Below, piece after piece: positions 5,139 through 39,142 of a stretch of 52,669 nucleotides of DNA. The DNA is from a virus. Each line of letters begins with the position of its first letter. Positions within the stretch are counted from its first letter, which is position 1. A model generated the notes under the pieces. That model made no database searches and had not been told where the DNA came from. It saw only the letters and a program-made list of their open reading frames with translations. The stretch is taken from the IMG/VR virus record IMGVR_UViG_3300027969_002501, positions 1 to 52,669 of that record; one strand, 5' to 3'. The translations under genes were made by a program, and so were the position numbers.

Positions 5139-6698
5139 TTACACTTGGGGAATATGATCGTCTGGGTGTGTTACTTGGCTTAAAGTTGGATCGATTGTTA
5201 AGTCTATAGCAGGAGCTTGAGTTGCAGTTGACTTTTTAGCTAAAGGGCGGCCTTGATTCTTTGGTTTGATTTTATCAGGAGATTGTATTGCTGTTTTTGG
5301 TTCTTTGACAGTTTTCTTAGTTACTTCTGGTTCAAGGGGTAGTAACGCTAATTCGTCTAATAGCGGACCGCCTGCAACGTTTGTTCTAACGGTAGTGCCT
5401 GATTTTGTAGTCCACATTCTGCAAAGAGAAGTATCTTTAAATTTTACATTTCCTTTAGCATCGGTATACTGGATTCTTCCATGAATATTGATGCCCATAT
5501 TACTGGGAGGAGCACTACCCACTAGGTCAACTTTTGATAATGCTTCTACTAATCTGCTATCTATTTTCATTAATTTATAGCCTGGGCTATTAGGATCAAC
5601 AACTAGTTTTACAATGTCTACCGATTCAACAGCACCTGTTTTTTCATCATAGTTGTTACTGTATCGAATTAATCCGTTAGCAATGGATTTTACTAACGCG
5701 GCTTCTTTTTGGGCACTGTCTCCACCTGCTAGTCTTTGTACGATTGGAATAACGTTGGCCCATACTTGTCGAAGTGCTACTATATGTTGATCTGTTGTAG
5801 TTCCCCACAATCTTTGATATTGACTTGCATCATAACCAAATACTGTTTTAAAGAACGCTAATTGTTTACTCCATTCGTGGCCGCTAGCTTGTCCCAATTG
5901 GCTGTTGCCTGTTTTAACACTTAACAAGTTTATTTTCTTGTTATCAAGGTGTAAGACAAGATCTGCTTTAGTTCCTTTATTATCGCTTATACCGTCTGAA
6001 ATAACTTGTATGGTATTTGTATTAGGATCTTTAGAAGCTTGGGCTAAACCTGCTTTAATTTTTGCTTCTTCTCTGGAGTATCGTAATGCAGATAAAATAA
6101 CAGCTCTTGTTGCACCTTCAATTGACCCAGGATCGTTTACTAGTTTAATAAACTCTTTAACAGCTTCTCCAGGACATTTAATATCAATTTTTAATATATC
6201 TTCCTTGCCTTGCAAGTGTGTTAGCTTGCCAGTCCACGACAGTCTAAGTGCTGAACCTGCTTTACCTTTGGCATTTAAAACTTGCCCAAGTGTCAGTGCT
6301 TGTGCTAGATTCATAAAATCTATAGGATCAACATCTTTGCCACCACCTAAGAATCGTGTAGCTACTGCAACTCCTAGACTAATTTCTCCAATGTATCCAA
6401 GATTAGCTTTATCACCACCTTTGATAGCTAGAGTTTTTTCTAAGGAAGTTAAGTTGATAGGTTCACCGTCTTCTGTTTTTAATGTAATTGGCTGACCTGG
6501 TTCTGCGTTATTTAGAATATCGATTGAGGATTTATCTAATACTACAGTATCCCCAAATTTGTCTTTTTTGCCCGGTACAACTTCTAACGGTGTTCCAGCA
6601 TCAATCATCGCAATCATATTGGCGCGATAATTGTGGTTAGTTTTAAATATGTCTGCAACCTTTAGGTTGGTTTCGTTGATAATGTCTAATATACGCAT
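5139..6698 (-). CDS. Capsid-tagged protein with possible PD-(D/E)XK-type nuclease domain
   Basis: A 519-residue protein starting with the tag MRILDIINE, then TN. The tag resembles the T4 capsid-targeting peptide, so it is probably packed in the head and trimmed after Glu9. The segment GTKADLVLHLDNKKINLLSV followed by KTG (about 244-266) has the Asp-x(13-15)-(S/D/E)xK layout of restriction-like nucleases, here with SVK in place of (D/E)xK. The last 75 residues are Lys/Pro-rich and probably disordered. The ATG is 6 bases from a late core, with no ribosome site. The nuclease call is tentative; the tag and late expression are seen directly. Confidence 0.6.
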   Translation of the reverse strand: MRILDIINETNLKVADIFKTNHNYRANMIAMIDAGTPLEVVPGKKDKFGDTVVLDKSSIDILNNAEPGQPITLKTEDGEPINLTSLEKTLAIKGGDKANLGYIGEISLGVAVATRFLGGGKDVDPIDFMNLAQALTLGQVLNAKGKAGSALRLSWTGKLTHLQGKEDILKIDIKCPGEAVKEFIKLVNDPGSIEGATRAVILSALRYSREEAKIKAGLAQASKDPNTNTIQVISDGISDNKGTKADLVLHLDNKKINLLSVKTGNSQLGQASGHEWSKQLAFFKTVFGYDASQYQRLWGTTTDQHIVALRQVWANVIPIVQRLAGGDSAQKEAALVKSIANGLIRYSNNYDEKTGAVESVDIVKLVVDPNSPGYKLMKIDSRLVEALSKVDLVGSAPPSNMGINIHGRIQYTDAKGNVKFKDTSLCRMWTTKSGTTVRTNVAGGPLLDELALLPLEPEVTKKTVKEPKTAIQSPDKIKPKNQGRPLAKKSTATQAPAIDLTIDPTLSQVTHPDDHIPQV

Positions 6699-6704
6699 AG
6701 TAAA

Positions 6705-6710
6705 TATTTA
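6705..6710 (-). promoter_or_regulatory. Late promoter, capsid-tagged gene; palindromic core
   Basis: GCTAAATATTTACTATG on the minus strand, 6 bases between core and ATG. TAAATATTTA is a palindrome, so a plus-strand core is also present at 6701-6706. The bilin reductase stop codon lies just upstream. Confidence 0.6.
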
Positions 6711-7388: not shown

Positions 7389-7923
7389 TAACAGCCTTTT
7401 CTAAGTCGTCAAACATATCTGCCGCAAACTTAAAACATACTGCGGCTTCGTCTGCTAGACTATCATCCAGTTTAGCACGTAGGACGTTTTTAATTTCTAC
7501 AGGATCTCCGTCAAACTGATAATACTTACCGGAGCCTGGAACACGTTTGGCAATCATTTGTCCGCCTGACAAGTCACCAAAATGTCTAACATACAAATGC
7601 GCCAGTATTTTCTTAGGATCGTCTTTGATACTCATCAAATGATCATGATATACTTTTACGCTAGGAACTTCAGTAGGCATATCTTCGCCAGTCCATAACT
7701 CGTTAAAGTCTTCTAGGATAGCAGGAGCTCTGCGAATTGTAGGATAATCATTCATCAAGCCATGCATCATAGCAATAGCTTCTAACATGTCGTAACACTT
7801 GTGCTGATTATACAGATACGTAGCGTATGCTTCAGGCGTGATTTTACCTGAAAACAATACTTTGACAAACGGGCGTGTCTCAGCGTATTTGTGATGCTCC
7901 CATGTTAAGTCTTTTAAACTCAT
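7381..7923 (-). CDS. ho: Heme oxygenase
   Basis: Opens heme to biliverdin, Fe2+ and CO, using electrons from ferredoxin or a similar donor. At 180 residues it is a compact HO. Visible motifs are the proximal His region (LTWEHHKYAETRPF) and the distal-helix signature HLYVRHFGDLSGGQMIAK with the flexible GDLSGG. The start overlaps the clpS stop (ATGA) and the end overlaps the bilin reductase start, so the three genes form a coupled operon. The likely path is heme to biliverdin to bilin. Released iron could serve phage iron enzymes (inference). Confidence 0.92.
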   Translation of the reverse strand: MSLKDLTWEHHKYAETRPFVKVLFSGKITPEAYATYLYNQHKCYDMLEAIAMMHGLMNDYPTIRRAPAILEDFNELWTGEDMPTEVPSVKVYHDHLMSIKDDPKKILAHLYVRHFGDLSGGQMIAKRVPGSGKYYQFDGDPVEIKNVLRAKLDDSLADEAAVCFKFAADMFDDLEKAVNE

Positions 7924-8222
7924 TCTTCTTCCAATTTAATTTGTAATGGAAATCCGTTAGCACGGGCAAGTTGTGTTGATTCAACAGCCTTTGCTTCTGC
8001 AATTTCAAAACTGTATACACCTGCAATGCCAGCGCCTGTTTCGTGTACAGTAATCATAATATCCCTAGCAGTTGTATCTGTGTGCTTAAAGATTTCAATA
8101 AGTACCCCTACCACAAAATCCATAGGGGTAGCGTCATCGTTCAATAGGATTACCTTCCAACGTTTAGGTTCCTGTACAGTAACCTTAATTTTTTCGTCTA
8201 GTTGGATATCAGTGCCTGCCAT
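7920..8222 (-). CDS. clpS: ClpS, N-end-rule adaptor of ClpAP
   Basis: ClpS delivers proteins with destabilising N-terminal residues to the ClpAP protease. The 100-residue product has the family core WKVILLNDDATPMDFVVGVL, with the Asp-Asp and Met of the N-degron pocket, and VHETGAGIAGVYSFEIAEAK. It is first in a late operon with heme oxygenase and bilin reductase, separated by a 4-base ATGA overlap. A phage adaptor could redirect host ClpAP, for example toward host proteins or trimmed phage proteins; this is inference. Host ClpS usually neighbours clpA, so the linkage to heme oxygenase is unusual. Confidence 0.93.
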   Translation of the reverse strand: MAGTDIQLDEKIKVTVQEPKRWKVILLNDDATPMDFVVGVLIEIFKHTDTTARDIMITVHETGAGIAGVYSFEIAEAKAVESTQLARANGFPLQIKLEEE

Positions 8223-8239
8223 TTTGTTTCTCCGGGGTT

Positions 8240-8263
8240 AGTGGAAGGGTTGCCCCTTCCACT
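8240..8263. other. Hairpin in clpS leader
   Basis: A perfect 10-base inverted repeat AGTGGAAGGG / CCCTTCCACT with a 4-base loop (GCAA on the minus-strand RNA, a GNRA type). It lies between the late core at 8266 and the clpS ribosome site. No T-run follows on either strand, so a protective or regulatory leader hairpin is more likely than a terminator. Confidence 0.6.
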
Positions 8264-8265
8264 GT

Positions 8266-8271
8266 TATTTA
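8266..8271 (-). promoter_or_regulatory. Late promoter, clpS-ho-bilin reductase operon
   Basis: ATGTAAATAACAGTGG on the minus strand, just after the hsp20 coding end and 43 bases before clpS. Confidence 0.5.
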
Positions 8272-8273
8272 CA

Positions 8274-8705
8274 TTATTTAATTTCGATTTGACGTGGTTT
8301 TAAAGCTTCTGGTACTACACGTTGAATATCAATTTGTAGCATACCATGTTCAACTTTAGCACCTCTTACAATCATGTACTCGGCTAGAGTAAATGTTTGT
8401 TCAAAGTCACGAGCGGCCAATCCACGATGTAAGTATTCGATTTGTCCAGTGTCAACATTTGGACGATCCTTAATACCGCGAATTGTTAGCTGGTCTTGAT
8501 CTACTTCAACTGTAACTTCTTCTTTGGTGAAGCCTGCTACAGCAACTTCAATGCCATATGTATCATCACTATACTTCACAATGTTGTGTGGAGGATAGTT
8601 TCCGTTTTGGTGATGTGGTGCGCTGAAATAGCGATCAAATCCTACTAGTGCTTTGCTCAGTTGTGCTAGAGCGGCTGTGTCAATAGTTCTTAGTTGCATT
8701 GTCAT
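8274..8705 (-). CDS. hsp20: Small heat-shock protein Hsp20 (IbpA-like)
   Basis: An ATP-independent holdase. The 143-residue product has an alpha-crystallin domain (about 40-130): YGIEVAVAGFTKEEVTVEVD, QDQLTIRGIKDR, YLHRGLAARDFEQTFTLAEY and ALKPRQIEIK. T4-like aquatic phages commonly carry hsp20, where it may assist capsid or tail assembly. The leader AAAGGAGAAATTT gives a good ribosome site. The upstream RNA has a 7-base hairpin (8735-8758) and shares a TTCTTGCTTAAT-AAAGGAGAA segment with dnaK. Initiation at Met3 is also possible. Confidence 0.93.
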   Translation of the reverse strand: MTMQLRTIDTAALAQLSKALVGFDRYFSAPHHQNGNYPPHNIVKYSDDTYGIEVAVAGFTKEEVTVEVDQDQLTIRGIKDRPNVDTGQIEYLHRGLAARDFEQTFTLAEYMIVRGAKVEHGMLQIDIQRVVPEALKPRQIEIK

Positions 8706-18533: not shown

Positions 18534-19634
18534 TTATAATGCTGGTAATGCGTCATAGTCTAACGTATCGCTCATAACACCAATAACATAATTAGTGCTT
18601 TCGCTTTCTTGTAGTGCAGTTTGTTTATTGCTTGTGTTAACGTGCTTGTTAAACCAAGGAATAGGTGTGGACTTTGGCGCAGGGTTATTATACTTAATAC
18701 CAATATCTTTTAGTGCGCCAACTGCTGTGTAGTCTACAAAGTCTTTGAGAATGTTAGCGTTCAATCCAATAACTGGACCTTTGTTAAACAAATAGTCTGC
18801 CCATTGTTTTTCTTCTCGAATCACATCCATGTACAAATTATATACTTCTTGTTCACATTCTGCTTTAATTTCGGCAAACCTAGTATCCTCTTTGACCACT
18901 TGATTAATCAAATAAGCAGTCCAACCCTTGTGTAGGATTTCATCTTGTAGGATCAATTGGATAATGTTACCATTGCCCATAAAGATTTTATTCTCTACCA
19001 TAGCTAGACTTGTAGCAAAACTAACCATAAAGCGGAATGCCTCTAAAGCATAGCTGGCATGTAGTGCCATGTAAATTGCTTTAATGTGTGTACGTTCGTT
19101 AATCTTCTCACCCATTTGCTTACGGCAGTTGACCATATGCAAGTCTTCATAGTAGTTACCTACACTAGATGCCATGTCAATAATTTCTTGTGTATCATGG
19201 ATTGTGTTGAACACATCTTTAGGTACGTTGTAGATATTACGAATGATATGACTGTAACTCTTGCTGTGAATGTTAGTTTCAAAGAATGTCCAGTTGTAAA
19301 TCAATGCTTCTAGTTCTGGCAATGACACTACAGGCATAAAGATCTGACTTGGTCCACGTCCTTGCAAACTGTCTAATGCTGTTTGTCTTAATAGGTTACT
19401 GGTAAAGATATGTTTGATAGCATCACTGGCATCTTTAAAGTCATTGCTGTCTTTGGTAAGACTAATCTCTTCTGGTTGCCAAAAGAAACCACGTGCCGTT
19501 GCTTCAAAATCTGCTATCTTTTTATACTTAACTTCTTCAAAACGTTGAATGGTAACTGGACCTGCTGGATCTAGAAACATCTTACGATTAAGATAGTCTG
19601 TCTTTGTTTTTAAATTATATTGTTCTTTACTCAT
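18534..19634 (-). CDS. nrdB: Class Ia ribonucleotide reductase small subunit
   Basis: 366 residues, the di-iron/tyrosyl-radical subunit. Ligand motifs are present: FWQPEEI, the LPELEALIYNWTFFETNIHS then KSYSHIIRN block with the radical Tyr region, and LILQDEILHKGW. The C-terminal SDTLDYDALPAL peptide would bind NrdA. The start overlaps the nrdA stop by ATGA. The spacing FFETNIHS has one residue more than E. coli SETIHS, as in many phage enzymes; I would not treat it as a defect. Confidence 0.96.
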   Translation of the reverse strand: MSKEQYNLKTKTDYLNRKMFLDPAGPVTIQRFEEVKYKKIADFEATARGFFWQPEEISLTKDSNDFKDASDAIKHIFTSNLLRQTALDSLQGRGPSQIFMPVVSLPELEALIYNWTFFETNIHSKSYSHIIRNIYNVPKDVFNTIHDTQEIIDMASSVGNYYEDLHMVNCRKQMGEKINERTHIKAIYMALHASYALEAFRFMVSFATSLAMVENKIFMGNGNIIQLILQDEILHKGWTAYLINQVVKEDTRFAEIKAECEQEVYNLYMDVIREEKQWADYLFNKGPVIGLNANILKDFVDYTAVGALKDIGIKYNNPAPKSTPIPWFNKHVNTSNKQTALQESESTNYVIGVMSDTLDYDALPAL

Positions 19635-21973
19635 AGTTTGCAACTCTCGCAATCATCTTCCAATTCGTCATAATGGAACCCGTTAACTTGAACTCCATTG
19701 ATTTGTGTTTGTTCAGGAGTAGGTTCTTCTACTGCTTTACTGCCAGCTTTATTGATTAGGCTGTAGTAGAATGTTTTTAATCCCCACAACTGTGCTTGCA
19801 TCAAGTTCTTGGCAATCAATGTAGTTGGAACTTTACGTCCTGGAAAGTGTGCAGGATTATAAAAGGTATTTGTACTGATACTTTGATCAACATAGGCCGC
19901 TAATACAGCACTTGTCTTTAAGTAGCCGTCACAGTCTTTCTGCTCCCACATTAATTGATACTTGTTCTTGAGTTTATGATACTCAGGGACAACTTGGACA
20001 AAGGAACCTGCTTTGCTTTCCTTAACTGAAATAAGCGACATAGGCATTTCAATGCCATTAGTGCTATTAATAACAACACTAGAACTTTCAACAGGGGCAA
20101 TAGCCATAAGTGTAGCATTTCTAACTCCATGCAATTTCATTTGTTCACGTAATGGTTCCCAGTCAAGTTCTGGAGTAAAGTCCGCTAATTCGTTTGCGCC
20201 TTTAGCACGTAATTCCCAAGGAAATATGCCTTTGCCGTATCGTGTATGTGCGCTATGCAAACATGGGCCACGCTCACGGGCAAGTTCAACTGTTGCTTCT
20301 GTTAGATAGAACGCTTGATGCTCCATCCACGATTTAACATCTTGCAAAGCATCCTTCTCTCCATATTTGAGTCCACGCTTGGCATGCCAGTAGGCTAAGT
20401 TAGTAACACCAATGCCTAGTGGTTGGATCTCGTCATTGGATAATTTACTTTGTATTGACAAGAAGTCCTGGTAATCTAAAATATTACATAGGCTACGCTG
20501 TAGAATACGGCAAGCACGGCGCATGTCTTCTGGATTACGGAACGCTCCCCAGTTAATAGATCCTAATGTACATAACGCTATGCGGCCATCGGCATCATCA
20601 AGGCGTTTGAATGATTTAGTTGGTAATAGAATCTCGCAACATAAATTGCTTTGATAAATTGTATGGTACTCAGGATCAAACGGTCCTTGGTTCATCACGT
20701 TGTCAATAAACACTAGATAGATACGCCCTGTATCAGTACGCTCTTTCAATATGCCCGACTTGAATACTTCTTCAGCACTCATTGTTTTAGTACGCAAGTC
20801 TTTACGTTTTTCGTATTTTACATATAGTTGTTCAAACAAGGCGGTGTTTTTGTAAAATGCTTCGTACAAATCAGGCACTTCATTTGGGTCGAAAAAGGTG
20901 ATGTTTTCCTTATTTTTAAATCGTCTCCAAAAGAAAGCGGACAGGACAACTCCGTAGTCCATGTGTCTAACACGAGTCTCTTCAGTACCCTGGTTATTTT
21001 TAAGAACAATAAGATCATCAAACTGATGATGCCAAATTGGATAGAATACTGTAGCACTAGCGTTACGGATACCTCCTTGACTGCAACTACGTAGGTCGCC
21101 AAACCATTTCTTTAAGAATGGAATCATACCAGTGTGCATGATTTCTCCACCTCTGATGGGACTGCCTAATGGACGTAGACGGCCAATCTCCAAACCAATG
21201 CCAGCACGTTTGCTAGCATACTTGGCCATCATTTCTCCGGATGCAAATATGCTATCCAAATCATCGTCACTACGGATAAGAACACATGAACTAAACTGCT
21301 TAGTTGGAGTTCCCAAGCCAGCAAGAACAGGAGTAGCAAGAGTAAATAGCCCATCACTGGCCGCATTATAATACTCTTTAATATAGCGCATCCTTGCGCT
21401 GTTAGGTTCTTCTTTATGGAACACAGTAGCCGCGGCAACCATATATCTAATTTGTGGAGTTTCATACGTTTGTTTTGTACTACGGTTTTTAACCAAATAT
21501 TTCTCTATTAATTGTTCAATAGCCGCATAACCATACTGTTCATCTTTTTCATGATCCAGCATGTCATCCATTCGGTTCCAGTCTTCTTCTGTATACCATT
21601 CCAGCAGTTCGTTAGTGTACAAGCCAGTAGCCACATTCTTCTTAACAATTTCATACAAATGTGGAACTGTGTAACTACCGTATACATCTTTGCGTAGCAT
21701 ACTCAGTCGTTGTTTGCCTGCTACATATTGATAGTTAACATGTCCAACATCTGGATTTTGCTCCACGTCAATCAAGTCGACTATCGCTCTAAGTGTAATG
21801 CCGTCAATTTCTTTAGTTGTTATGCCATCATAAAAATGTAATTGGGCTTTGATTTCAATCATCGATTGGCTAACATCTGCAATGCCCTGGCAAACTTTTG
21901 CTACCTGCGCTTGCCATTTATCGATTGTTAACGGCTCTTTTTGTCCGTTTCTTTTAATTACTGTTATGTTCAT
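19631..21973 (-). CDS. nrdA: Class Ia ribonucleotide reductase large subunit
   Basis: 780 residues, converts NDPs to dNDPs. It has an N-terminal ATP-cone (NITVIKRNGQKEPLTIDKWQ), the first redox Cys (QFSSCVLIRSDD), the active-site loop SNLCCEILLP with Cys-x-Glu, and a C-terminal Cys pair (DDCESCKL) for re-reduction by glutaredoxin. The start at 21973 fits the ATP-cone; a Met six codons upstream is less likely. It is first in the nrdA-nrdB-grx operon, which has a late-type core but may also be read from elsewhere. Confidence 0.97.
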   Translation of the reverse strand: MNITVIKRNGQKEPLTIDKWQAQVAKVCQGIADVSQSMIEIKAQLHFYDGITTKEIDGITLRAIVDLIDVEQNPDVGHVNYQYVAGKQRLSMLRKDVYGSYTVPHLYEIVKKNVATGLYTNELLEWYTEEDWNRMDDMLDHEKDEQYGYAAIEQLIEKYLVKNRSTKQTYETPQIRYMVAAATVFHKEEPNSARMRYIKEYYNAASDGLFTLATPVLAGLGTPTKQFSSCVLIRSDDDLDSIFASGEMMAKYASKRAGIGLEIGRLRPLGSPIRGGEIMHTGMIPFLKKWFGDLRSCSQGGIRNASATVFYPIWHHQFDDLIVLKNNQGTEETRVRHMDYGVVLSAFFWRRFKNKENITFFDPNEVPDLYEAFYKNTALFEQLYVKYEKRKDLRTKTMSAEEVFKSGILKERTDTGRIYLVFIDNVMNQGPFDPEYHTIYQSNLCCEILLPTKSFKRLDDADGRIALCTLGSINWGAFRNPEDMRRACRILQRSLCNILDYQDFLSIQSKLSNDEIQPLGIGVTNLAYWHAKRGLKYGEKDALQDVKSWMEHQAFYLTEATVELARERGPCLHSAHTRYGKGIFPWELRAKGANELADFTPELDWEPLREQMKLHGVRNATLMAIAPVESSSVVINSTNGIEMPMSLISVKESKAGSFVQVVPEYHKLKNKYQLMWEQKDCDGYLKTSAVLAAYVDQSISTNTFYNPAHFPGRKVPTTLIAKNLMQAQLWGLKTFYYSLINKAGSKAVEEPTPEQTQINGVQVNGFHYDELEDDCESCKL

Positions 21974-25341: not shown

Positions 25342-26370
25342 TTACTTTTTTTTTGATTGCGCTAACATTATGCCTAGTTTACGGCTATAGTTTGATTCTC
25401 TCATTTCGCGGCCTGCTGGGCTTGCTGGTTCTTCTTCGCCTGCATCCATTCCTACATCCATACCTGCATCCATCTCTGGTTCGCCACCTGGCATGCCTGG
25501 AGTTGTAGGAGCTGATCCCATCATCTCTCCGCCGCCTTGGCCTGATGCAATTGACAATCCTGAGCTTAATGCACCACGTGCCTTTTCTAAGCCTGCATAA
25601 ATTTCTTCTAGTGCAGGACGAACTGCTTGTGTATATTGTTCAGCAACATCTGAACCTAATTCTTCTCTTATAGAGTCTAATAGTTGTAATAGTTGTTCGG
25701 CTTTCATAGCTGACACATCGTCAAGCCAGCCTGTAATACGATCAACCATGTCCTTTGTGGACATAATGATTTTGGCTTTTTCTTCTTCGCCTTCTTCTAG
25801 ATATACAATGTGGTTTGCTACGCTTTCTCGTAGATCGTATCGTGTTACTAATTCTGCGGCTAATTCGCCTTGGTCGCTTTCGCCTAAGTTGATGCGTCGG
25901 ATAGCATCAGCAATCCAACTAGTTGGAACTGAATGTTCTCTAGCTTTGATAGCTAGTTTACCTAAATAAATGTTATGGTCCATACTTTCCTCTGCTTTTT
26001 TCTTAAATTTGTTTTTGCGTAATGCCGCAAAGTCTGATTTTTCAAGTTTGCCGTTTTTATTAACGTCTAATTTCTCTTGCTTGCCTGGCAAATTATCTGC
26101 GCCTTCTTCCATTGCGGCTTCGCGTTCTAAAATTTCTTGATTGATAACATCATGTAGCATACGTACTTTTTGGTACTGTGGGCTAGAGTTAACACTGTCA
26201 AAGCTTTCGCTAACTTCAAACTGGCTCATTTCTGTGCGCATTTTGTTGCGGGCATCTTCTAACTGGGCATCGCTGAACTTTTCCAAGTTCAATTTGTAGC
26301 CCAACTGCTTGGCCATATTTTCGTTAAGTCTTTTACTTGTAACGGGTTGAGAAAGTTCTCTAATGTTCAT
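25342..26370 (-). CDS. Conserved T4-like phage protein, probable head/scaffold component
   Basis: 342 residues, strongly charged and helical. It begins MNI RELSQP, a tag-like start lacking the Glu. Other features are an EF-hand-like segment (DVNKNGKLEKSDF), KAKIIMSTKDMVDRITGWLD and a helical block (MKAEQLLQLLDSIREELGSD). A low-complexity Gly/Met/Pro/Asp stretch (GGEPEMDAGMDVGMDAGEEE) precedes the end. Similar proteins in T4-like aquatic phages are annotated as structural or scaffolding; I cannot prove which. The 3' end reads TCA-A9-G-TAA. Confidence 0.68.
   Translation of the reverse strand: MNIRELSQPVTSKRLNENMAKQLGYKLNLEKFSDAQLEDARNKMRTEMSQFEVSESFDSVNSSPQYQKVRMLHDVINQEILEREAAMEEGADNLPGKQEKLDVNKNGKLEKSDFAALRKNKFKKKAEESMDHNIYLGKLAIKAREHSVPTSWIADAIRRINLGESDQGELAAELVTRYDLRESVANHIVYLEEGEEEKAKIIMSTKDMVDRITGWLDDVSAMKAEQLLQLLDSIREELGSDVAEQYTQAVRPALEEIYAGLEKARGALSSGLSIASGQGGGEMMGSAPTTPGMPGGEPEMDAGMDVGMDAGEEEPASPAGREMRESNYSRKLGIMLAQSKKK
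25346..25354 (-). other. A9 tract at gene end (possible -1 frameshift site)
   Basis: TCA AAA AAA AAG TAA in frame. A -1 slip on the A run, or a missed tenth A in assembly, continues translation into the frame ending at 25016. The context is the same as at 12613-12621. Confidence 0.5.
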
Positions 26371-26875: not shown

Positions 26876-27065
26876 TGGCTACCACTTTAGGATTAACTTG
26901 TCCTATCTTAGTTACCAGACTTTTGCGGATTAGGGCCTCGATCCTGAATTGATCATGTTCGCTTAAACTAGATAGCGGAACTGGTTTTGATAGCTTTCTA
27001 AGTATTTCAGCTTCTTCGTTAGTTGTGAAGATACCAAACTCTCCAATAAGCTCGTTTATTTTCAT
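26850..27065 (-). CDS. Capsid-tagged small protein
   Basis: 71 residues starting MKINELIGE then FGIFTT. The first nine residues fit the window's head-targeting tag ([ILV]xE at 7-9). The rest (TNEEAEILRKLSKPVPLSSL, RIEALIRKSLVTKIG) looks like a small winged-helix-type fold, by eye only. The start overlaps the preceding gene stop. Confidence 0.62.
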   Translation of the reverse strand: MKINELIGEFGIFTTNEEAEILRKLSKPVPLSSLSEHDQFRIEALIRKSLVTKIGQVNPKVVANEQAKKQA

Positions 27066-27748
27066 TTAAGACCCGATAACATTTTAATGCGTGACACTTC
27101 TGCTGATTCTTCTAACTTGTGCATATTAGCTGGGTTTGGACGCTGACCTGGCTGTGGCAACGGTTGGCTCCTGCTGTCAAAACTTGGAGCAGGATTTCTT
27201 GTTGCAGGCAGATGCATTATGCCAGTAATTTCAGCAAATGCGTTTGGCCCAATTTTCCATTTGTGTCCGGTGTTTAATGCTAGATATTTTTTGCCTTTAA
27301 AAACAACATAACCCATTCTGTTACCTGCATTAGCCGGATCTGCAATGTATGCCTGATCAACTTCTCTTCTAGTGCTAGTGATTTCAATAGGATCGCCATC
27401 TGATGCAAATAGTTGCGCACCTTTTCGTATTGCATTAACTGTGTTTGAAACGTTAGACGGTTCTTCTTGTACCTTAATGTCTTGCCCCATGGCAACTGGA
27501 GCTTGTCCAGGAGTGCCGGTTGGTGCTGGTGTTGGAGTTTGATTGGTTTGACTGTCTTGTTGTGTATTAATCATAGGCTTGCCATCCGGGCCTGTGCTGA
27601 TCATATTTGATGGAACCATTTGTTTAATACCATTGGACATTGTTACTGTCACCATACCCGGTGCACCACCCATACCCGGTTGTTGGGCAGTTATTTTACC
27701 CATTTGTGGCATTTGCCCGTCTTCACTTACAATGTCTTTAACTTTCAT
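27062..27748 (-). CDS. Capsid-tagged protein, unknown function
   Basis: 228 residues: tag MKVKDIVSE, a low-complexity Gly/Met/Pro/Gln stretch (about 10-85), a globular part (ASDGDPIEITSTRREVDQAY, KYLALNTGHKWKIGPNAFAE) and a Pro-rich tail ending SRIKMLSGLK. The tag predicts packing in the head and cleavage after Glu9. It has a ribosome site TGGAGAA. Function unknown. Confidence 0.62.
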   Translation of the reverse strand: MKVKDIVSEDGQMPQMGKITAQQPGMGGAPGMVTVTMSNGIKQMVPSNMISTGPDGKPMINTQQDSQTNQTPTPAPTGTPGQAPVAMGQDIKVQEEPSNVSNTVNAIRKGAQLFASDGDPIEITSTRREVDQAYIADPANAGNRMGYVVFKGKKYLALNTGHKWKIGPNAFAEITGIMHLPATRNPAPSFDSRSQPLPQPGQRPNPANMHKLEESAEVSRIKMLSGLK

Positions 27749-30006: not shown

Positions 30007-30933
30007 TTATAGGGTTATTTTTTGAGAGATAAGTCGGAACCAGTCTGCTGATCCTTCTTTAATGAAACGATCTGGATACTTCTTCTGCATATCGCCTTTA
30101 AACTGTGCTAAACGCGGGTTGTCTATGCCTTGCGGAATGTGTGCTAGTATACGATCCACTGTGGCTAGCCAGTCCTGATTAGCACCAGGATCGTTGAATA
30201 AACGCTGTGCTATTTTATGTATGTCGCGTTCTAACACTTCGCCATCCGCACGATTCTTTAATGACCCGCCCATGCCATAGTATAAGAATGTACGTTCTAA
30301 ATGATTAGGTACGCTGTTGGCTAGACTGGATAAGGCAAATTGTTGATCCTGCCCGTCCCACTTGTAGTCTTTAGCATAGTCGTGTTCATGATGTTTGACT
30401 GTACTGCTGGCATGTTCCGTGGTCGGAAAGTCCACTTGATAGTAAGATGGAACACTAGTACCCAGTGCTGGCACATCCACTTCCTCACCTGTTGGAATAC
30501 CCAAATGCACTTGTTCACCTGTTTGGGTAACTGCATCAAATGACTGTTTGAGATACTGCGCAAATGCCGCACGTACTTGGCCATCATCTGCACCTGCATC
30601 TAGTCCTAGCTTAGGAGCAATTTCTTTACTGCTGATATGAATGTCAATATCGCCAGCTGTGGTCTTAACACTGCCCATTTTGTAGTATGGATGGCTAGGA
30701 TGCCAACTGCCAGCCGAACCGCTGGTCCAATGTCCTTTGGTACCTAACTCATCCAATATGGGCTGTACTTGTTTAACAATGTTATTGTATGCTTCACGTG
30801 GGATACGTACAATAATGCCCCGAACATTAGTTGGATCAATCTTCTTTTTGGGTTTGGCTGAGTCGCCCAAACGTGTGTCGTTTAGTTCTTCTATTCCATA
30901 CAGGCCAGCTGGCTCTAATGCAAAACCACTCAT
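30007..30933 (-). CDS. Phage protein with possible nucleotidyltransferase-like core
   Basis: 308 residues. The segment YYKMGSVKTTAGDIDIHISS (GS-x7-DxD) plus a later acidic YYQVDF is the pattern of the polymerase-beta NTase fold. Conserved-looking C-terminal parts are LERTFLYYGMGGSLKNRADG and LATVDRILAHIPQGIDNPRL. It overlaps the preceding small gene by ATGA. The NTase call is tentative; no substrate is suggested. Confidence 0.55.
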   Translation of the reverse strand: MSGFALEPAGLYGIEELNDTRLGDSAKPKKKIDPTNVRGIIVRIPREAYNNIVKQVQPILDELGTKGHWTSGSAGSWHPSHPYYKMGSVKTTAGDIDIHISSKEIAPKLGLDAGADDGQVRAAFAQYLKQSFDAVTQTGEQVHLGIPTGEEVDVPALGTSVPSYYQVDFPTTEHASSTVKHHEHDYAKDYKWDGQDQQFALSSLANSVPNHLERTFLYYGMGGSLKNRADGEVLERDIHKIAQRLFNDPGANQDWLATVDRILAHIPQGIDNPRLAQFKGDMQKKYPDRFIKEGSADWFRLISQKITL

Positions 30934-31181
30934 TCTTTGCCTTCTTGTATTTTTTTAATGCCGCGTTTGAATTTAGTAACATCGTTAGATTTGATGCTGT
31001 TGATAAAACGGCGTTCTAATTCAGCGGCCGTTTCCACATCATAGTTTTCACGTATAAGTTTCAATAAGTTAACAGCACTATCGATCAAATTGGAACCGCG
31101 ACTTTCTATGATCAAATCAGTGTCTCGTTTGACTCCTAAATCGCTTAGTTCTTGTAATATACTACGGGTGCTCTTACGCAT
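30930..31181 (-). CDS. Conserved small phage protein
   Basis: 83 residues: MRKSTRSILQELSDLGVKRD, then IIESRGSNLIDSAVNLLKLI and a basic C-terminus. ILQE near the start resembles the head-targeting cleavage motif but the spacing is longer than in the other tagged proteins. Function unknown. A late core lies 20 bases upstream. Confidence 0.62.
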   Translation of the reverse strand: MRKSTRSILQELSDLGVKRDTDLIIESRGSNLIDSAVNLLKLIRENYDVETAAELERRFINSIKSNDVTKFKRGIKKIQEGKE

Positions 31182-31201
31182 ATTGTTAATCTCTCTTACT
31201 G

Positions 31202-31207
31202 TATTTA
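31202..31207 (-). promoter_or_regulatory. Late promoter, small gene/NTase-like gene
   Basis: AATAAATACAGTAAGAG on the minus strand. Confidence 0.6.
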
Positions 31208-31278
31208 TTTGATTGTAACATTTGTTGAAACGGAAATCAAGCGGGTTGGTTTTAATCTTAGTGTAATACTAACAGGGC

Positions 31279-31284
31279 TAAATA
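31279..31284 (+). promoter_or_regulatory. Late promoter, plus-strand microprotein genes
   Basis: GGGCTAAATACTCAG on the plus strand, 47 bases before the ATG at 31332. It opens the plus-strand island. Confidence 0.6.
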
Positions 31285-32317: not shown

Positions 32318-32345
32318 AAAAAAGGACCTCTGGGTCCTTTTTTTT
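32318..32345 (+). terminator. Strong intrinsic terminator between convergent genes
   Basis: AGGACC-TCTG-GGTCCT followed by eight T, preceded by six A, so it works in both directions. It ends the phasin operon on the plus strand and the capsid-tagged genes on the minus strand. Confidence 0.92.
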
Positions 32346-32754
32346 ATCCTATTGCATCTTGTTCAAACAAGTCCGGATGTTCTTTGCCCCAATTGCGCAT
32401 GATAACAGCGGCCTTAGCATTGGCTTCGTTTTCTTGTGGGCTACCTGTGGCACCTGCATTTTCATCCATCAATTGATCTTCTAAGTCTTGTTTGTAATGC
32501 ACCATCTCATGTGCCAGTGTGCGACACACATCCATAATATGGCGATTCTTCACAGTAACATCAATGTGACGTTCGCCTGGCATATATCCGCCAAAGCTCT
32601 TACGGTCAACACTGGTATTACTGTCAAAGATAAAATGAAACTTTGGCAGTGTTTTGAGTTCCAATGACTCGGCCGCATACTTTACAAATTCATGCAGTAT
32701 GTTAAACGTGGCACGTTTGTCCAGACTTTCCGTTAATATGTGACGTACTTTCAT
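32344..32754 (-). CDS. Capsid-tagged zinc metallopeptidase (HExxH)
   Basis: 136 residues. The tag is MKVRHILTE, then SL. The zinc motif LAHEMVHYKQDLEDQLMDEN has His-Glu-x-x-His and a later Glu (ENEANA) that may be the third ligand. If packaged and injected, it could cut host or phage proteins at the start of infection (inference). The start overlaps the preceding tagged gene by TAATG. Confidence 0.75.
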   Translation of the reverse strand: MKVRHILTESLDKRATFNILHEFVKYAAESLELKTLPKFHFIFDSNTSVDRKSFGGYMPGERHIDVTVKNRHIMDVCRTLAHEMVHYKQDLEDQLMDENAGATGSPQENEANAKAAVIMRNWGKEHPDLFEQDAIG

Positions 32755-33137
32755 TATACACCGTACCGGTTACGTTTAGGTTTAGCTACTGGACTGACTG
32801 CATACACATCAGTTTCTGTACTTTGACTACTGGCAATACGAGTGGCTTTGACACCCATCATCTTGTCGGCCAGTCGAATAGTTTCTTCATCTTCCACACT
32901 GAATGGTACTATTGCTAGATTCTCTGCCCATGCACTTTCTTGTTCAAATTCAACTTCGTGATCTCTATTGGCTCTTGCACCTGCTAAGGCAATGCCGTAA
33001 CGATATTGCATATAGGGATCAGTATTACGTAAGTCACGCTGTACAAATGCTCCGGGCAAACTGTTGCTGACCTGTGCGTCTACTTTGCCAAAAGTGCCGT
33101 GTAACTTAGTTTCTGGTAGGAATTCTTTTGCTCTCAT
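32754..33137 (-). CDS. Capsid-tagged protein, unknown function
   Basis: 127 residues starting MRAKEFLPE then TKLHGT. The C-terminus VYAVSPVAKPKRNRYGV resembles a conserved ending of T4-like aquatic phage proteins with the same kind of start. The start at 33137 is fixed by the tag and by the late core 5 bases upstream. The tag ends in LPE, so proline lies at the P2 position of a predicted cut; whether a gp21-like protease accepts this is untested. Confidence 0.68.
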   Translation of the reverse strand: MRAKEFLPETKLHGTFGKVDAQVSNSLPGAFVQRDLRNTDPYMQYRYGIALAGARANRDHEVEFEQESAWAENLAIVPFSVEDEETIRLADKMMGVKATRIASSQSTETDVYAVSPVAKPKRNRYGV

Positions 33138-33142
33138 ATCTA

Positions 33143-33155
33143 TATTTAGTAAATA
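33143..33155. promoter_or_regulatory. Divergent palindromic late promoter
   Basis: TATTTAGTAAATA: a perfect palindrome around one base holding TAAATA on both strands. Plus strand: 7 bases to the 5-aminolevulinate synthase ATG. Minus strand: 5 bases to the capsid-tagged gene ATG. Confidence 0.7.
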
Positions 33156-37354: not shown

Positions 37355-38776
37355 CTAGGCAGACAGTGTAGTATTAAAGTGACTTCCTGCGATTTGTTGA
37401 CCGCCTTGTTTTTGTAATTTATGTAACCAACCAATATCTGTTCCTGGACCATAGGCCGCAGGATTAGTAGCAGAGAAGTTTCGTTGATTGCGACTCACAC
37501 TTGGCAAATATTTTATTGCACCAGTACAAATGCCATGCAGTTGTCTAGCGTTAGGGCCACGAACAAAGTTTGCACTAGGTTTATGTCCATCTGCTCTAGT
37601 TCCAGTAACTGCTTGAAATTGATTACGTGCTTTCAATGCACCTATAACTCCATTCTTGCCGTAGTCTCTTGCACGATTAAGTATACTGCCCATGACCATT
37701 GCATAAGACTTTGCACTATAAGCACTTTCAGCACTTGTAGCTCTAACTAACCAATCCCACTCGCTATCAGTCATTGGCCTGCCAAGATAATCTTCTGCTG
37801 ATTTTCTAGCCTTTTCAGTTAATTGATCTTTTGGAATATTGCCATAATCTTCAATATCAGAATCATCAACGTCAGTTACTCCAGCAAGTTTACCTTTAAC
37901 ATCTGCTTGTGTACTCTTTTCAAATTTGATACCTTTACTAGCAATGAGTTTGTTTAAGGCACCAACTGTCTCGGGCCCCGGATCACCATCTACTTCTAAA
38001 CCGTTATCTCTTTGAAATTGTTTTACTGCTCCACTTGTTTCAGGACCCCGTACTCCATCTACTCCATGTCGAGGTAATTTATATCCTAATGCTAATAGTG
38101 CTCGCTGTATATCTGCCACAGCAATACCAACTCGTCCTTGCGGAACTGCTATAGATAATTGTGTATTAATATTTTGTTTTGGTTCAGCTTGTTGTGCCGA
38201 TTGAGGAACAATAGCTTGTACAGGTTTAACTGCCATACCAGCTTGTTTTAATTTTGCATAGCCGCCGTACGGATGTATACCATCTCCTTTACCGCTATGC
38301 ATTGCTGGATCAAAGTCTTCTAAAGGACCAAGAAAAGTTGCGCCCGAATCACTGGCCATTGATTCTAATTGTTGGTTAATACCTGTTAGGTCAACAACAT
38401 ATTTTTTACCGCCAGTCCAACTTGTACCAGGTTGTGGTTTTGATTTAGTACTGCCAGTACCAACTAATGCTACTGTAGCACCTGCATCTTTGAGAGCTTT
38501 TAACTGTTGAGCTACTGCACCAAGGCCGCCGTTGCCAGGCTTTCTAATACCACCTTCTAATTCAATAGGTGCGCTATTACTTGCTCCACTGCTAAGAATA
38601 ACTGTGGCACCTTTGGCTTTGCCTGACGCAACAAACGCATTAACTCTTCTCAACGTTTCAGTACAATTGATGCCGCCTTTGGCATAAGGTTCAGCGCCTC
38701 CAATACCAACAGCAATACTGTCGCCTATAATAACAACATTATTTGATGCTTCTAAAATAATATCTAATATTCTCAT
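37355..38776 (-). CDS. Capsid-tagged SGNH hydrolase + peptidoglycan-binding + SleB-like hydrolase
   Basis: 473 residues in five parts. (1) Tag MRILDIILE. (2) SGNH/GDSL domain (about 13-190): NNVVIIGDSIAVGIGG, SSGASNSAPIELEGGI and the Asp-x-x-His motif GDGIHPYGG. (3) A linker. (4) PGB1-type domain (about 218-290): VADIQRALLALGYKLP and GPETVGALNKL. (5) A C-terminal cell-wall-hydrolase-like domain (about 320-473): LVRATSAESAYSAKSYAMVM and LNRARDYGKNG. If packaged, it would be injected or released to modify peptidoglycan at entry. The start overlaps the preceding tagged gene. Confidence 0.82.
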   Translation of the reverse strand: MRILDIILEASNNVVIIGDSIAVGIGGAEPYAKGGINCTETLRRVNAFVASGKAKGATVILSSGASNSAPIELEGGIRKPGNGGLGAVAQQLKALKDAGATVALVGTGSTKSKPQPGTSWTGGKKYVVDLTGINQQLESMASDSGATFLGPLEDFDPAMHSGKGDGIHPYGGYAKLKQAGMAVKPVQAIVPQSAQQAEPKQNINTQLSIAVPQGRVGIAVADIQRALLALGYKLPRHGVDGVRGPETSGAVKQFQRDNGLEVDGDPGPETVGALNKLIASKGIKFEKSTQADVKGKLAGVTDVDDSDIEDYGNIPKDQLTEKARKSAEDYLGRPMTDSEWDWLVRATSAESAYSAKSYAMVMGSILNRARDYGKNGVIGALKARNQFQAVTGTRADGHKPSANFVRGPNARQLHGICTGAIKYLPSVSRNQRNFSATNPAAYGPGTDIGWLHKLQKQGGQQIAGSHFNTTLSA

Positions 38777-39129
38777 TTCTGACCTTTGCGGGTACCGTAG
38801 TCTGGCAATGGACCACCGTGCGCTTTTCCTTTAATTTTTTTGCCGCCAACGGTGACACGCACCTTACTGTCACCGTGGCCAATCAAATGACTCTTCTTAC
38901 CATCTCTGGCACGTAGGCCCTGGCTTTTACAACTGGCCAGCGCACTTGCGCCTAATGACTCATCGCTAACGTTACTCACGCACAATTTACGGCTGGTTGG
39001 GCCGTGTTCTTCAATTTCTATGTATGTAGGCACTGCTTCGTGCCCGCGGGCTGGTCTAGCACCTGGACGCTGGCTTCTTCTTTGGGCAGTACCAAAGGCT
39101 TCTTCTTTAATAAATTCGTTTGCTCGCAT
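38773..39129 (-). CDS. Capsid-tagged basic protein
   Basis: 118 residues: tag MRANEFIKE then EAFGTAQRRSQRPGARPARG, a strongly basic stretch. A region with Cys (RKLCVSNVSDESLGASALAS) and a Lys/Gly-rich tail follow. Charge and tag fit an internal head protein that contacts DNA. ATG 7 bases after a late core. Confidence 0.68.
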   Translation of the reverse strand: MRANEFIKEEAFGTAQRRSQRPGARPARGHEAVPTYIEIEEHGPTSRKLCVSNVSDESLGASALASCKSQGLRARDGKKSHLIGHGDSKVRVTVGGKKIKGKAHGGPLPDYGTRKGQK

Positions 39130-39136
39130 AGTAATG

Positions 39137-39142
39137 TATTTA
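39137..39142 (-). promoter_or_regulatory. Late promoter of the two-gene capsid-cargo operon
   Basis: CAATAAATACATTACTATG on the minus strand, 7 bases to ATG. It serves the basic protein and the SGNH/PGB/SleB gene. Confidence 0.65.

Follow-up and report, generated by a model that had tools for sequence, protein, structure and literature searches.

The CTS of phage T4 has a division of labour, in which residues 4 and 7, in the N-terminal part of the peptide, serve targeting and residues 8 and 10 serve processing; an Asp at position 10 blocks trimming and still permits targeting (PMC9026906). Among the proteins that use this signal, Alt is an injected ADP-ribosyltransferase, and a review has already suggested that the CTS lets T4-like phages package varied proteins (PMC9026906). 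In phiKZ-like phages and SPN3US, ejection proteins have a propeptide that was proposed to direct head entry and is removed by the prohead protease (PMC5694885), and in phage P1 an N-terminal signal of more than 9 and fewer than 30 residues routes the host-acting protein DarB to the head (PMC9024508). A literature search for CTS in jumbo phages, with incomplete coverage, returned only the SPN3US work.

Here we analyse a 52,669-base virus record, the whole of which is referred to as the window. A first-pass annotation had noticed seven gene starts sharing the nine-residue pattern M[KR]xxx[FIL][ILV]xE, plus two variants without Glu9, and had proposed that these T4-type tags sit on unrelated proteins that are packed in the capsid, trimmed and then injected; it also called for a search for a gp21-like protease and for further tagged genes. 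We consider it very probable that the tag set as a whole serves T4-type head targeting and trimming.

Results

Seven tags at gene starts

All seven starts and peptides proposed for the window are exact to the base (Table 1; genes are named by the first position of their start codon). With residues 2-26 of the 100 called proteins shuffled, only 0.02 matches to the pattern are expected, compared with the seven observed. Across four records, the window and three relatives, 16 early ATGs but no internal Met codon out of 3,360 match the strict motif, and a weight matrix of the tag scores 10 or higher at no internal Met in nine records. As in a T4-type CTS or a gp21 substrate, the proteins begin with a short N-terminal peptide ending in [LI]xE, two of the seven being doubtful in this respect; the other five (6698, 38776, 39129, 33137 and 32754) retain the [LI]xE site in their relatives. 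A wrong start codon could be suspected at 33137, where an in-frame TTG precedes the ATG by 12 codons, but in relatives of this gene the tag starts at the ATG. Given also that orthologues back the other starts and that the matches far exceed expectation, an explanation by chance matches or misplaced starts is refuted for five or more of the seven, and we give it practically no weight.

Table 1. Tags, tagged bodies and late promoter elements in the window
Gene	Feature	Position	Strand
6698	Tag MRILDIINE, predicted cut after Glu9	6672..6698	-
6698	Body of 519-aa protein, phrog_3560 relative	5139..6671	-
6698	TAAATA, T4-type late promoter element, ends 6 nt before ATG	6705..6710	-
27065	Tag-like MKINELIGE, doubtful	27039..27065	-
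27748	Tag MKVKDIVSE, mixed conservation	27722..27748	-
27748	Body, ends RIKMLSGLK; C-terminal motif common to gp22 scaffold of relatives	27062..27721	-
32754	Tag MKVRHILTE	32728..32754	-
32754	Body, zinc-protease-like, HEMVH then a Glu	32344..32727	-
33137	Tag MRAKEFLPE	33111..33137	-
33137	Body, commonest tagged family, 105 members found	32754..33110	-
33137	TAAATA late promoter element, ends 5 nt before ATG	33143..33148	-
38776	Tag MRILDIILE	38750..38776	-
38776	Body, SGNH-hydrolase-like N-terminal part and PG_binding_1 domain	37355..38749	-
39129	Tag MRANEFIKE	39103..39129	-
39129	Body, short form of tagged GH19 protein, GH19 domain absent	38773..39102	-
39129	TAAATA late promoter element, ends 7 nt before ATG	39137..39142	-

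Five tags retained in relatives

The window is syntenic with two other records, G001 (356 kb; locus L009) and G002 (116 kb), and more distantly related to G003 (233 kb); no close phage relatives were found at the DNA level. Among cultured phages, the Rak2-like giants and PA5oct come closest in gp23, with about 65-70% identity over the N-terminal 110 residues. The window also has host-like genes at 7920-8705 and 18534-21973 that match ClpS, Hsp20 and both ribonucleotide reductase subunits of PA5oct.

Orthologues of 6698 start with MRAKEFLLE (L002) and MNILDIITE (G002), and MRVIDILSE occupies the syntenic place in G001. Structure prediction for two sequences of this protein was unusable (pLDDT 31), and a nuclease-like reading of it, made from sequence alone, found no Pfam support at any E-value. 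The body of 38776 matches Pfam PG_binding_1 (E 1.4e-15) and PHROG endolysin families, and its G001 relative combines SGNH, LysM and Phage_lysozyme2 domains. With a slash marking the end of the tag, the window reads MRILDIILE/ASNNVVIIGDS at this junction and G001 reads MRFTEFKLVLKE/NKQSVVIIGDS; the G001 tag is longer, with its Glu at residue 12, not 9, and LxE still abuts the same enzyme. No relatives of 38776 were confirmed in a search by peptide patterns. The 39129 body matches residues 242-328 of G001_334319, in which residues 122-185 form a Glyco_hydro_19 domain, and tags in its relatives include MRAKDFILFE, MRAKEFTLSE and MRAKEFIVE.

Relatives of 33137 begin with M[KR]xxx[FI][ILV]xE in most of 28 loci, all fetched through the body. 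Across 50 aligned members, some of which had been chosen by the tag pattern, R2, E5, F6 and E9 never vary, and the segment following Glu9 differs in length. No relatives of 33137 were found in cultured phages, and its structure model (pLDDT 71, with a disordered tag region) was considered too poor to take into a fold search. For 32754, a weak Pfam match to Peptidase_M91 (E 0.018) accompanies orthologue tags of MKVKEILTE, MKIKELLTE and MRAKEFLAE. A homologue in cyanophage B23 (gp332) is tagged with MNYKQFLRE and a family member in S-SRM01 (164797-165195) is untagged, so the tag is gained or lost on the same kind of body.

Doubtful members and variants

The proposal of a T4-type tag on all seven proteins holds for these five and is weaker for the other two. 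Conservation at 27748 is mixed: its positional counterparts in G001 and G002 are MKIKDIVE and MKIKDILE, and L004 has MKVKQIVKP. The 27065 tag fails the orthologue test, as relatives have Asp or nothing in place of the Glu (MKINELIND, MKISELLDG). Both gp22 (G001, G003 and G009-G013) and the 27748 family (window 27062-27748) terminate in a motif like R[RK]LAGL, which in its general form, [RK]xx[AS]GL, was counted at 16 C-termini compared with 0.4 expected. The motif is possibly a second core-binding signal, and with such a scaffold-like end 27748 may be a core protein and not injected cargo. The seven could thus be a mixed set in which most are head cargo and 27748, possibly with 27065, belongs to the prohead core or scaffold and is cut or degraded without being injected. 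The shared gp22-like ending and the lost Glu in 27065 relatives speak for this division, which for the other five tags is compatible with head targeting and trimming; we regard it as a real possibility that falls somewhat short of even. Since Asp10 in T4 targets without trimming, some Glu-less tags here could, by analogy, be uncut tags.

Neither of the two variants proposed to lack Glu9 has a Glu9 tag. No [LI]xE site is conserved in relatives of 28439, and in 26370 (window 25342-26370) a conserved LNE that is not of the tag type occupies residues 15-17. A conserved LQE, likewise not of the tag type, is located at residues 9-11 of 31181 (window 30930-31181). Both 26370 and 31181 match PHROG virion structural families, and their early [LI]xE sites are possible further propeptides.

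Spread and cargo of the tag

A DNA pattern for MRAKEFIxE matched at least 120 viral contigs, and the matches listed include 127 tagged proteins, almost all of them with the tag at the start of the ORF. Applied to bacterial and archaeal genomes (257 Gb), the same pattern produced only 17 matches: 15 fall within ORFs of unrelated families, for the most part a single enzyme family, and the other two encode a protein near-identical to a viral hit (L189). Pooling the matches listed with the inventories of eight relatives gives 186 tagged proteins that BLAST separates into 51 body clusters, which answers the call for other tagged genes and bears out the claim that the bodies behind the tags are unrelated.

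By Pfam, the tagged bodies include GH19 lysozyme-like (5), M23 peptidase (2), PG-binding, LysM, DUF6321 (5), amidoligase (2), ADP-ribosyltransferase (2 kinds), GNAT (2), gamma-glutamyl cyclotransferase and Tat signal (1) families, and T4 Alt is a precedent for part of this cargo. Three tagged cell-wall enzymes (SGNH+LysM+Phage_lysozyme2; GH19; PG_binding+M23) are encoded consecutively at G001 332020-335350 (L058), together with a 33137 relative. In G012, the protein at 297068 (L276:17068-17961) has the tag MRISEIIVE/APTDVSRRGFLKGLASIAAS with a twin-arginine signal immediately after it (Pfam TAT_signal E 0.00072, below the curated cut-off), and clipping of the tag would be predicted to expose the Tat signal.

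The tag codons of 128 genes show 41 synonymous spellings, and residues rather than bases are therefore kept, which indicates selection on the peptide. TAAATA occurs in the 30 nt preceding the start in 21 of 54 tagged genes, compared with 441 of 2804 other genes (p 4e-5), and this enrichment of a T4-type late element suggests that the tagged genes are expressed late. The same enrichment would suit a recombination cassette, in which a late promoter would move between genes together with the opening codons, as DNA, and the peptide would be without a function of its own. Such a cassette is hard to reconcile with the diversity of synonymous spellings and with a promoter element at fewer than half of the tagged genes, and we consider it highly improbable. 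Across G001-G003 and G009-G013, 183 of 2,681 ORFs have the element ending 4-7 nt ahead of their start codon, a sharp peak that is absent from T4, PA5oct and 121Q. With this spacing and the T4 geometry, transcripts would start at or beside the ATG, raising the possibility of a genome-wide class of leaderless late mRNAs.

A gp21-type protease and gp23 cleavage sites in relatives

The protease search succeeded in relatives of the window and not in the window itself, which is a fragment and contains no protease, gp23 or gp22-like scaffold gene within its 52,669 bases. In G001 and G003, a gp22-like scaffold lies between an S77 protease of gp21 type and a gp23 of T4 type; because protease and gp23 are present in the syntenic G001 and the more distant G003, the window phage probably has them as well. 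Every tag-bearing record with an identified gp23 (seven, G001 among them) has an S77 protease. The one record of more than 190 kb that has no S77 is G014; gp23 is also absent from it, so we interpret it as a fragment and rejected it as a counterexample.

The gp23 proteins of relatives align at a junction LLE/SPSAGATSAGN and variants of it, where T4 gp23 has LTE65, and their cleavage-site letters are LLE, LSE, LAE and IME. A small tagged protein in G013 reads ILE/SATAGATSAGSIAT, matching LSE/SATAGATSAGNVAT of gp23 in the same genome, and another in G011 reads ITE/TATAGSTSASNIAS, matching LAE/SATAGSTSAGNVAT of its own gp23. At these two junctions, the tag shares its specificity with the gp23 site of the same genome. 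In 47 cluster representatives, the observed-to-expected ratio of [LI]xE is 0.79 in tagged bodies and 1.19 in others, and none of 5,000 length-matched draws was as low. Other spacings and LxD change less in tagged bodies, although spacing 3 is also lower, and the depletion may be partly due to tagged bodies being less helical.

Blind recovery of T4 head proteins

We scanned the T4 ORFs with a weight matrix trained solely on the tags described here, allowing one-residue length shifts. The top four are gp61.1 (MKTFKEFIKE), gp24, ipII and ipIII, three of which are known gp21 substrates or CTS carriers. In fifth place is the DNA end protector gp2 (76061-76885), which begins MAIFQIINE/ST and could be a further case of a tag on an injected protein.

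Gene 61.1 of T4 (NC_000866 18966-19130) encodes a tagged peptide of 54 aa. Its body matches the mature N-terminal arm of gp23 with a score of 69, compared with 39 for the best of 2,000 shuffles. Similar sequences are found in 1,386 phage records, a few of them annotated as major capsid protein, and the architecture recurs in two uncultured giants (G013 31018-31281 and G011 118340-118576); no relatives of the 87-aa peptide of G013 were found in cultured phages. We predict from these alignments that gp61.1 is a tagged gp21 substrate carrying a copy of the gp23 arm. In a literature search of incomplete coverage, only two papers turned up for gp61.1.

Tag-like proteins among PA5oct virion proteins

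The PA5oct record marks proteins detected by ESI-MS/MS. With a flexible tag rule, set after the virion list had been seen, five of 93 MS-flagged proteins are tagged compared with three of 400 others (p 0.0075); the strict motif alone is not significant (p 0.24). The flagged tags are MKINDIITE, MKLFEVFTLYE, MKIKDILVE and MRLNEINLIE (both with GTG starts) and MKILEFNLTE, and the protein with MKLFEVFTLYE is related in its body (E 4e-12) to L098, a tagged viral protein. The three strict matches without the MS mark include the scaffold, a protein that T4 destroys. Detection in virions is no more than supportive of head targeting. The nine-residue pattern is found in neither 2.275.O nor Atu_ph07, and in the Rak2-like 121Q, GAP32 and CBB there is nothing beyond one chance-level match, despite the gp23 of 121Q, GAP32, CBB and 2.275.O being close.

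The virion data do not distinguish parts of the particle, and several tagged bodies are cell-wall hydrolases of the kind usually located in tails. The endolysin-like look of some families counts against a head location, where such proteins are not expected. The tag could accordingly be an uncleaved docking peptide for the tail, baseplate or whiskers, or a common assembly motif, instead of a head address. Against this stand the gp23-like junctions directly behind the tag Glu, the blind recovery of T4 head substrates, the depletion of [LI]xE in tagged bodies and the retention of [LI]xE in the 38776 orthologue where the site has moved, and we judge such a docking or assembly role improbable.

Discussion

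The targeting and trimming steps of the packed, trimmed and injected cargo originally proposed draw support from the protease, the junctions, the T4 scan, the [LI]xE depletion and PA5oct, and we infer the injection step from T4. In late infection, the tag would dock its protein onto a partner, presumably the scaffold or core of the prohead. Next, the S77 protease of gp21 type would cut after the tag Glu ([LIV]xE/), which in the nine-residue tags is predicted to be Glu9, and the mature protein would stay within the capsid. It would finally exit with the DNA, as T4 Alt and the internal proteins do, and on the strength of this analogy injection into the next host cell is likely.

A broader reading is that one universal clip-off tag serves giant T4-like phages for bringing a large and exchangeable set of enzymes into the head for injection (murein hydrolases, ADP-ribosyltransferases, amidoligases, zinc-protease-like proteins and even a protein whose Tat export signal clipping would expose), together with a gp61.1-type gp23-arm peptide having an unrecognised role in head maturation. 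We put this forward tentatively, as possible but rather doubtful in its full extent. A one-line sequence rule would turn uncultured giant-phage genomes into lists of candidate injected proteins, a field in which few counter-defence and takeover functions have been assigned. The rule also yields specific, laboratory-testable predictions for T4, such as gp61.1 as a gp21 substrate.

Comparison with known systems

Like the CTS of T4 IPI, IPII, IPIII and Alt, the tags are N-terminal peptides of about 10 residues with a basic residue 2, an acidic and then aromatic or aliphatic core, Glu at P1 and Leu or Ile at P3, on unrelated bodies; T4 ipII and ipIII begin with MKTYQEFIAE, which resembles the tags here. 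In contrast to the T4 CTS, these tags have nine residues as a rule with a core of MRAKEFIxE, and far more carriers are found, in 51 body clusters with many enzymes. The gp21-cut propeptide of T4 gp24, MAKINELLRE, differs little in sequence from tags such as MKINEILKE, but gp24 is a shell protein and the carriers here mostly are not. Propeptides of phiKZ-like phages and SPN3US are mostly 80-160 residues long with other cleavage motifs, whereas these tags are 8-12 residues long and of T4 type, and the Dar proteins of P1 have no common consensus, unlike the strong common motif described here. The principle is thus known from the T4 CTS; the scale, the wealth of enzymes among the cargo, the nine-residue core and the prediction for gp61.1 are new.
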